NCBI RefSeq assembly: GCF_001989615.1
Contig: NZ_CP019067.1
Location: 2,108,001 to 2,172,000, forward strand
Direction: 5' to 3'
Length of the DNA stretch: 64,000 nt
DNA from: Halorientalis sp. IM1011
GTDB taxonomy: Archaea; Halobacteriota; Halobacteria; Halobacteriales; Haloarculaceae
Shown here: one piece after another, positions 33,645 through 36,628 of the stretch
Layout: the number at the start of each line of letters is the position of its first letter
How positions within the stretch are numbered: position 1 is the first letter of the stretch
Notes under the pieces: model-generated
Told to the model about the DNA's origin: nothing
The model's input: only the letters and a program-made list of their open reading frames with translations
Database searches by the model: none
Made by a program: the position numbers and the translations under genes

Positions 33645-35870
33645 TCACCGCTCCCGTCCGCCGTCGGCGACCGTGGAGTCCACCGGTCGCTCGTCGGCGT
33701 CGACCTCGAACGTCGAGAGCATCCGCCGGAGTTCCCGGGTCCGTTCGGCGAGTCGCCCCGCGGCGTCGGAGACCTCGTCGATGGACTCGGTGGCTTCCCC
33801 GGCGGCCTCGGAGACGGTGTCGGCCTGCTGGGTCGTCTGTTCGGAGACGCTCGCGACCTCGTCGACCATCGCGACGATCCCCTCGGCGGAGTCGGCCTGG
33901 TCGTCGGTCGTCCGGGCGATGCTCTTGAGGCCGGTGTCGACCTCGTCGACGCCGTCGACGATCGCCTCCAGGGCGTCGGTCAGTTCTTCGACCGACGCGA
34001 CGCCGTCCGTGATCCGTGACTCGGTGGCGCGGATGTCGTCGGCGCTCTCGTGAGCCCGTTCCTGGACCGCCTCGACCTGTGACTGGATCTCCGTGACGAC
34101 CGCCTTGGTCTCCTCCGCGAGCTCTTTGACCTCGTCGGCGACGACGGCGAATCCCTCGCCGGCGTCCCCGCCGTCCCCGGCACGGGCCGCCTCGATGTTC
34201 GCGTTCAGCGCGAGGATCGAGGTCTGCTCGGCGATGTCGTCGATCAACTCGGTCGCCTCGCTGACCTGCTCGATCTCGGCGGCCAGATCCTCGATTGCGG
34301 TCACGGCGTCGGCGATCTGCCCCTCGACCTCGCGCATCTCGGCGATGGTCGCCTCGGCCTGCTCGCGACCGTCGGACCCGAGTCGGGCGACCCGATCCGA
34401 CTCGGACGCGATCTCGTCGGTCGTGGCCGCGACCTCCTGGATCGCCGCCGACAGGTCGTTGACCTCGTCGGCCGTCGCCTGGAGGTCCTCGGTCTGTTCG
34501 TGCGCGCCGGCCGAGATCTGCGCGACCGACTCGTCGACCGCCGCGCTGGCCTCCCTGACTTCGGCGGCGCTTTCCTCGACGCCGGTGCTGGATTCGGCCA
34601 CGTCGTCGGCGAACTCCTCGACGTCCGCGACGGTCGCCTCCAGCGACGCGATCATGTCGTTGAACGACGTGGCGATCGCCTGCATCGCCTCGCTGTCGGC
34701 CTCGGGATCCAGCCGCTCGGTGAGATCGCCCTCGGCGCAGGCGGCCATGACCTCGCTGTACCGCTCGGCCTCGGCTTCGAGTGCCTCGTTGAGTCGCTGG
34801 GTCCGCAACTCGGACTGTTCGGCCTCTTCGCGGGCGCGTTCGGCCTCGGTGCGGGCCTCTTCGGCCTCGTCGAGTGACTCCTCCAGCGATCTCCGCATCG
34901 AGTCGAACTCGTCGTACAGCACGCCCACCTCGTCGGCCCGGTCGGTCGACAGTTCCACGTCGAGGTTCCCGCGTCCGATCTCCTCGGCCCGGTCGGCCAG
35001 TCGCTGCAGCGCCAGCGCGAGGTTGCCGCCGACGGTGACACCGAAGATACCGAGGTTCAACGCGACGATGTATATGAGCGCGACGATTGCCGCGGTCGCG
35101 ACGTTGCGGTCACCGTAGACCGTCCCGGTCGGCGCGTGGCTCACGACGTGCCACCCCGTCCCGGAAACGGTCGCGGTCGCGGCGACCAGGTCGGTCTCGC
35201 CGACGGTGCCGGTCGCGGTGCCGTTCGCCGTCAGTTCCGTGGCCCCCGCGGCGCGCTCCTGGTCGCCGGCCGCGAGCACGACCTCGTCGCCCGCCGCGAG
35301 CGCGGTGTCGTACTTCTCGTCCGCGAGCCGATTCCGGAGCGTTTCGGCCGCGCCCGCCACGACGACGTATCCGTTCTCGCCGGCCGGAGCCACGACCGGG
35401 ATCACGGAGCCGTTCCCGACGACGGCGTCCCGGGGTTCGTCGACCGCGACCGACTCGGTCCCCTCGGACGTCGCGACGGAGAGCGACTGGCCGACGGCGC
35501 TCGACGCCGAACTCGCCGCGATCCGGCCGTCCTCGACGTAGTGGATCGCCCCCACCCGGTCGGACCCGGCGGCGGCTCCGGCGAGGTACTCCCCGATGCG
35601 GTCCGCGTCGCCGCTCTCGACGGTCTCCGTGGCCGCCACACTGGTCGCGAGATCGGCGTTGGCCTCGACCCACAGCGCCGCGGTGTCGGCGCTCTCGTTC
35701 GCGTCGGCGGCGAGCGCGGCGTCGGCCGAGGAACCGAGTTCGCCCGCGACGTTGCCGTAGAAGAAGGCGGCCGAGACGAGCGTGACGGCGAACACCAGCG
35801 CGAGCGTCGCCGCGATCTTCAGGCTGTAGCGCGATCTGATCCGGTCTGGGACGAGTCGTTCCGTGTTCAT
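33645..35870 (-). CDS. Methyl-accepting transducer with two HAMP domains (Htr-like)
   Basis: 741 residues. A membrane helix (about 18-40) is followed by an extracellular Cache-like sensor region of about 220 residues, a second helix (about 265-288) and a HAMP domain ([20 protein letters not shown]). A second HAMP-like unit ([20 protein letters not shown]) leads to the cytoplasmic signalling coiled coil with the hairpin region [18 protein letters not shown]. Two tandem HAMPs are the Htr layout of haloarchaeal phototaxis transducers. The ATG is 2 bp after the stop of the opsin-like gene. No che genes are near. Confidence 0.92.
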
Positions 35871-35872
35871 CG

Positions 35873-36628
35873 TCAGTCGTCGGCCGGTGTCTCGGCGGTG
35901 GGGTGGTCGGTGTTCGAGCGCGTCAGGAAGGACAGCGGCGAGGGGTGGGTCTCGACCGTCGACCTGATCGCCGGTTCGGAGCGCAAGAGCAGTCCGGCGA
36001 GGGCGACGTGGCTGAACAGGTCGAGGTAGGCCGAGACGTAGATGCCGGTGAACGCACCGAGCAGGCCAAGCGCCTGTCGCGTCGTCAGCGCGACCAGCAG
36101 GTACGTCAGGAGCATGATCACCTGCACGTTCCGGAGTTTGCCGAAGAGGAGACGGCGGTCACCGGCCACGGACGCCGCCGCCCGCGTGTACGTGCGGAGC
36201 AACAGCCACAGCGAGTAGACGAACCCACCCAGCACCAGCAGGCTCGCGAGGCTGTCCAGCGGCGGCGACGCGAGGTGGCGGGCCATTGCCCCGAAGGAAA
36301 ACGCCCACAGCCCGAGGATCCCCGAGAGGACCGACCGCCGGTCGGCGTCGGCGAGTTGCCCCGTGTAGGCGATCATCACGGCGTAGACGACCCCGTAGTC
36401 CAGAAACCGGGTGAGATACACCGGTGCACCGTGGGGGCCCCGCAACAGCAGGACCCCGGTCGCCATCCCGACGTAACTCACCGTGAGCGACGCGGTTATC
36501 GCCGGTGCGAGCATCGCGTGCCGCCGCGTCGCCCCGTCGAACCGCCGGGCCCAGGCGACGAACACGGCCGTCAGTAGTCCTCCCACGATAGCCACCGCCG
36601 CGTAGAGGGTCCGTTCTTCGAATAGCAT
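35873..36628 (-). CDS. Lysine-less microbial rhodopsin homologue
   Basis: 251 residues with seven membrane helices (about 8-27, 38-62, 70-92, 98-118, 125-146, 165-185, 190-216). By eye it aligns with bacteriorhodopsin and sensory rhodopsin II throughout: SYVGMATGV in helix B, TRFLDY in helix C (Arg74 and Asp77 match BR Arg82 and Asp85), [13 protein letters not shown] in helix F and [17 protein letters not shown] in helix G. Asp203 matches BR Asp212, but the retinal lysine (BR Lys216) is His207, codon CAC at 36010-36008. It cannot form the usual Schiff base. It is the first gene of an operon with the transducer. Confidence 0.83.

Follow-up and report, generated by a model that had tools for sequence, protein, structure and literature searches.

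A histidine-type lysine-less opsin and its HtrII-like transducer in Halorientalis: a candidate retinal-independent receptor complex

What might a seven-helix opsin homologue do beside a sensory transducer once its Schiff-base lysine is gone? This question is raised by two adjacent genes in the window, the 64,000-nucleotide stretch of Halorientalis sp. IM1011 DNA analysed here. The original prediction described two open reading frames of 251 and 741 aa, 2 bp apart, and the sequence bears out their coordinates and strand: both lie on the minus strand, and 2 bp separate the opsin stop from the transducer start (Table 1). Membership in the rhodopsin family, for which a profile search had been proposed as a check, is confirmed by a match of opsin residues 9-216 to Bac_rhodopsin (PF01036; 41.6 bits, curated cut-off 24.6, E 1.3e-10), and a PDB sequence search returned deltarhodopsin, BR and SRII. 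An AlphaFold2 model of the opsin built from a 5-sequence alignment is poor (mean pLDDT 47), so that its top Foldseek entries, SRII/HtrII with a TM score of about 0.55, carry no weight by themselves. The two HAMP domains ascribed to the transducer are recovered by Pfam as two HAMP stretches together with MCPsignal (E 1.5e-34), and the best PDB match of this protein is NpHtrII (2f95_B, E 1.2e-22). It has the HtrII-type layout TM1-TM2-HAMP-HAMP-MCP signalling domain, including an equivalent of Asn74; the AlphaFold2 model of its N-terminus, likewise from a 5-sequence alignment, has a mean pLDDT of 39.

Table 1. Coordinates in the window of the opsin and transducer genes and of their main domains and residues
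Feature	Position	Strand	Basis
HtrII-like transducer, 741 aa: TM1, extracytoplasmic domain, TM2, two HAMP, MCP signalling domain	33645..35870	-	Pfam, PDB search
MCP signalling domain, residues 505-675	33846..34358	-	PF00015 E 1.5e-34
First HAMP domain, residues 286-331	34878..35015	-	PF00672
Asn272 in TM2 = NpHtrII Asn74, partner of SRII Tyr199	35055..35057	-	Ungapped alignment to 2f95_B; Asn in 7/7 His-clade transducers
Extracytoplasmic domain, about residues 40-258, divergent relative of dCache-like HtrII domain	35097..35753	-	hhalign
Lysine-less opsin-related protein, 251 aa, His207 at BR Lys216 position	35873..36628	-	PF01036 E 1.3e-10, PDB matches BR/SRII, trees
His207 codon CAC (BR K216 / SRII K205 position)	36008..36010	-	Sequence, alignment, His in 9/9 His-type homologues
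Asp203 = BR Asp212	36020..36022	-	9/9 in His-type
Tyr201 = NpSRII Tyr199, transducer-contact residue; Val/Ile in BR	36026..36028	-	Alignment; PMC3274258, PMC5292967
Tyr176 = BR Tyr185 / SRII Tyr174	36101..36103	-	9/9 in His-type
Arg74 = BR Arg82	36407..36409	-	9/9 in His-type
Tyr52 = BR Tyr57 / SRII Tyr51	36473..36475	-	9/9 in His-type

Lysine-less haloarchaeal opsins are not new. According to the available text of Becker et al. 2016 (PLoS One e0156543, PMC4915679), 48 of 170 opsins from 80 haloarchaeal genomes, nearly 30%, lack the lysine and were named ORPs; 15 of 16 in group A and 17 of 32 in group B adjoin transducers, and taxis to non-light stimuli was proposed for them. The lysine position holds Arg in group A (mainly Halorubrum) and Leu or another hydrophobic residue in group B; a search of the same text found no His there. 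The main inference of the original prediction had therefore already been published. Its view of a rhodopsin-fold Htr partner, most likely not sensing light via retinal, is supported by the lost pocket, the missing retinal genes and the conserved interface contact described below, whereas its judgement that a haloarchaeal lysine-less opsin paired with a transducer is unusual does not stand against this published class and the many linked pairs in the present sample.

To place the window opsin, we built trees of 90 and 89 sequences with the lysine column masked (support is given as bootstrap/SH-aLRT in the careful tree). All 67 lysine-less opsins fall on one side of a 100/99 branch, and a new family outside ORPs was rejected. 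The lysine-less sequences form a Halorubrum-type Arg group (100/99), a Natrialbaceae Arg group (100/99), a His clade of eight sequences (100/99) and a hydrophobic group (80/91); the first and last are equated with groups A and B of Becker et al. by residue and taxon pattern, without the paper's own sequences, and family labels such as Natrialbaceae are our interpretation of group codes. The window opsin is thus an ORP that lies in the His clade, outside group A (Arg) and group B (hydrophobic). Also in the sample is a very divergent lysine-bearing opsin (L124:4896-5924; end branch 2.78), in which Gly replaces BR Trp86 and to which no transducer is linked.

Beyond the window there are eight His-type homologues. 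Four, at 79-81% identity, were all found in Halorientalis by contig search, with the same copies in genomes of the window's genus group; three have 42-45% identity (L061 45%, L062 44%, L063 42%), and L077, from another family, about 31%. The search of viral contigs found no relatives. Since the same His occurs in these eight homologues from independent genomes, codon 207 (CAC) is genuine and a sequencing error is ruled out. L077 (genome G353) is an isolated His-type opsin on a long branch, placed weakly with the hydrophobic group and having a short-loop transducer upstream; His at the lysine site may have arisen twice.

The alignment with lysine-bearing BRs and SRIIs confirmed the assigned equivalences of R74, D77, D203 and H207 to BR R82, D85, D212 and K216, the absence of the TTP motif and the replacement of the helix-F Trp (BR W182) by L173. 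The Schiff-base lysine of SRI/SRII is missing, and with it much of the retinal cage: relative to SRII, the changes are W76 to Y78, W171 to L173, P175 to L177, W178 (BR W189) to A180 and K205 to H207, so that of the aromatic cage W76/W171/Y174/W178 only Tyr174 is retained, as Y176. The SRII T80 position has become Y82 (SRII numbers in helices B and C were set by motif, the reference loop length differing). What has been kept is polar. The BR Tyr57-Arg82-Tyr185-Asp212 set is complete in all nine His-type sequences (Y52, R74, Y176, D203), as is R184-Q185 at the end of helix F. D77 is not general, being Asp in the five closest sequences and Met, Val or Ala in the other four.

The host genome (99.99% complete, 3.78 Mb) points the same way as the pocket. 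The window opsin is its one PF01036 match, and profile searches found in it neither Brp/Blh (PF15461), which the same search detects in eight congeners, nor the lycopene cyclase domain of CrtY (TIGR03462), found in 8/8 congeners; the host has lost its retinal biosynthesis genes, none being detectable by profile search. Light sensing by the opsin through non-covalently bound retinal, or through some other carotenoid derivative bound in this way, is conceivable: BR and bovine rhodopsin that lack the lysine can function with aminated retinylidene compounds (cited in PMC4915679), and a cell might in principle obtain retinal made by others. However, the cage has other residues in place of three conserved Trp and the Pro of helix F, neither Brp/Blh nor CrtY was detected in the host, and, as the available text of Becker et al. 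has it, ORPs of two species, expressed and purified, did not absorb in the retinal range (480-580 nm) when retinal was added in excess (PMC4915679). We therefore consider light sensing of this kind very improbable.

Loss of the chromophore site and of the retinal pathway might also be expected of a decaying, non-functional remnant of a sensory rhodopsin. This possibility we regard as extremely improbable, because the frame is intact, dN/dS is about 0.2-0.4, the His and the polar core are invariant down to 31-45% identity and synteny is kept in seven genomes. Rough Nei-Gojobori estimates put pairwise dN/dS at 0.22-0.37 (opsin) and 0.19-0.29 (transducer), and the opsin mean is about 0.29 in pairs including the window vs 0.27 in the others, with no visible relaxation in the window lineage. 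Both genes are under purifying selection, and a pseudogene was rejected as an explanation of the opsin. The pair lies beside serS in 7/7 genus-group genomes that have it, and the Csp/MBL side is kept in most.

In the SRII-HtrII complex, the hydrogen bond between SRII Tyr199 and HtrII Asn74 is tied to complex formation and signalling (PMC3274258, PMC5292967); its importance follows from the findings that BR given Thr200/Tyr210 binds HtrII (PMC3274258) and that the bond shifts in the M state (PMC5292967). By alignment, both sides are retained in the window pair, as opsin Y201 and transducer N272, and the Tyr is present in every lysine-less opsin and SR examined, whereas BRs have Val or Ile. SRII Tyr174 also bonds Thr204, an interaction of functional importance (PMC3274258); the Thr204 position is Ser206 in the window opsin and varies across the rest of the His clade. 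The second SRII-HtrII bond, made by SRII Thr189, has no evident counterpart, the opsin having Gly191, and this counts against the reading that we favor.

The two proteins have also been inherited together. Trees of the linked transducers recover the main groups of the opsin tree, those that accompany lysine-less opsins fall on a single branch (99 SH-aLRT), and opsin and transducer distances are strongly correlated (Mantel r 0.934, 61 pairs; 0 of 2000 permutations as high). The distance correlation alone does not separate co-inheritance from shared species history, except through three within-genome comparisons. These come from genomes having both a His pair and an SRII/HtrII pair: their two transducers are 42-43% identical within a genome, against 68-83% identity between the His-linked one and the window transducer. 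These genomes control for species history, and in them transducers follow the opsin type, not the genome.

Linkage itself is frequent. A linked transducer is present for 16/16 Natrialbaceae Arg-type, 7/10 group-A-like and about 16/32 group-B-like opsins in this sample, and a survey of relatives, which had been suggested as a check, found His at the lysine position in 9/9 His-type opsins and a linked transducer in 8/9. The exception is L062 (genome G113), for which the stretch covered, 3.6 kb downstream and 1.8 kb upstream, contains no transducer gene, which also counts against the favored reading; this opsin (L062:3559-4323) sits between a Mrp-type ATPase gene and a fumarase-like gene, both assigned by eye. 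The comparison with the layout of sensory rhodopsin/Htr pairs holds for adjacency and fails for order: the opsin comes first in 7/7 paired His-clade loci (the window, L002-L005, L061 and L063), while the transducer comes first in the remaining 54 linked pairs, which comprise every SRII/HtrII and non-His-clade ORP pair examined, among them L077. In these 54 the two genes usually overlap by 4 bp or stand a few bases apart (overlong ORF calls make the distances for L077 and L106 unreliable). Two further arrangements were noted. Natrialbaceae-type loci (L064-L080 except L077) make up another well-supported clade, this one having Arg in place of the lysine; their transducers bear an ectodomain and are encoded upstream, overlapping the opsin gene by 4 bp, 14/16 of the opsins have Thr at SRII Thr204, and the HtrII Asn74 position is Asn or His. 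At L083, L087, L088, L090 and L091, two lysine-less opsins lie close together, in four cases with one transducer between them.

Taken together, we think that the pair probably descends from a sensory rhodopsin and its HtrII and works as a receptor complex independent of retinal, with a relay from helix G to TM2. The Schiff-base lysine of the seven-helix protein is gone, as are most aromatic residues of its retinal cage; the polar Tyr-Arg-Tyr-Asp network on the extracellular side is kept, His207 lying a single helical turn from Asp203, and so is the contact from helix G to TM2 of the transducer. In the proposed mechanism, a stimulus other than light sensed through retinal (a ligand, ion or proton) would act on the emptied pocket or the polar network and shift helices F/G; TM2 would then move via the Tyr201-Asn272 contact, and HAMP would carry the signal on to CheA and the archaellum. 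The host has CheW-domain and archaellin genes (C1 2.047-2.060 Mb, some 84-97 kb from the pair). Judged from sequence, coupling between opsin and transducer is well supported; physical binding, the direction of the signal and the opsin itself being the sensor are what we infer beyond it. It is tempting to go one step further and suppose that the Asp203-His207 pair in the old retinal site might form a protonation or ion/ligand switch, His207 functionally replacing the protonated Schiff base, so that a chromophore-free seven-helix chemoreceptor would drive the transducer via the sensory-rhodopsin relay. We offer this only tentatively, as an unlikely though specific version of the mechanism.

The sensor might instead reside in the transducer, the lysine-less opsin being a leftover structural or tuning subunit for stability, assembly or gain. 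Between TM1 and TM2 there is an ectodomain of about 219 residues, a distant relative of the dCache-like HtrII ectodomain (hhalign against the HtrII profile: prob 95.9, E 6e-9) and nearer to Natrialbaceae Arg-type ORP transducers (prob 99.5) than to canonical HtrII. PDB profile searches gave nothing meaningful for it and weak chemoreceptor-sensor matches for the HtrII ectodomain. HtrII of Halobacterium salinarum is a serine receptor (PMC3274258), and between the window and L061 ectodomain and opsin diverge at similar rates (45% identity each). On the other hand, the window ectodomain matches no Cache model in the Pfam profile search (canonical HtrII has a weak dCache_1 match, below cut-off). 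The polar core around H207 is kept in 9/9, and the periplasmic stretch of most group-A-like and group-B-like transducers is only about 44-60 aa, so that in the wider family no extracytoplasmic input other than the seven-helix protein is evident. These short stretches argue for the seven-helix protein as the putative shared input of ORPs; in the His clade, the ectodomain could provide a further input or substitute for one. We find it rather unlikely that the ectodomain is the real sensor.

What haloarchaeal lysine-less opsins sense was left open in 2016, as far as the available text of that paper goes (PMC4915679), and no later answer was found in the literature. The host provides a clean test case: it has a single opsin and chemotaxis and archaellum genes, a retinal pathway is not detectable in it, and the transducer beside the opsin has a known SRII-HtrII contact. 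If the opsin proved to be the sensor, microbial rhodopsins would gain a chemoreceptor branch comparable to GPCRs.

Among known systems, Rh-noK (of betaproteobacteria and others) and the lysine-less freshwater FArhodopsins are also microbial rhodopsins without the lysine, but they are kin of xanthorhodopsin/proteorhodopsin, occur in tandem with a pump or flotillin and have no transducer (PMC10308929). NpSRII/NpHtrII shares with the window pair a seven-helix protein, a 2TM-HAMP-MCP transducer and conserved Tyr199 and Asn74 equivalents; in contrast, the window pair lacks the Schiff-base Lys, has the cage aromatics replaced and reverses the gene order, and the ectodomain of its transducer is absent in NpHtrII and present in the longer HtrIIs of related genomes. 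The closest likeness is to ORPs as described in the available text of Becker et al.: lysine-less Type 1 opsin homologues related to sensory opsins, with the aromatic cage lost and many located by HAMP/MCP transducers. Unlike those, the window opsin has His, keeps the Tyr174 equivalent that is lost in groups A and B, and its gene comes first, next to that of a transducer with a large ectodomain. The His clade, the opsin-first order, the retained polar set and contact, the co-variation and the retinal-pathway-free host go beyond that text, and the window pair is a well-marked variant of the published ORPs.
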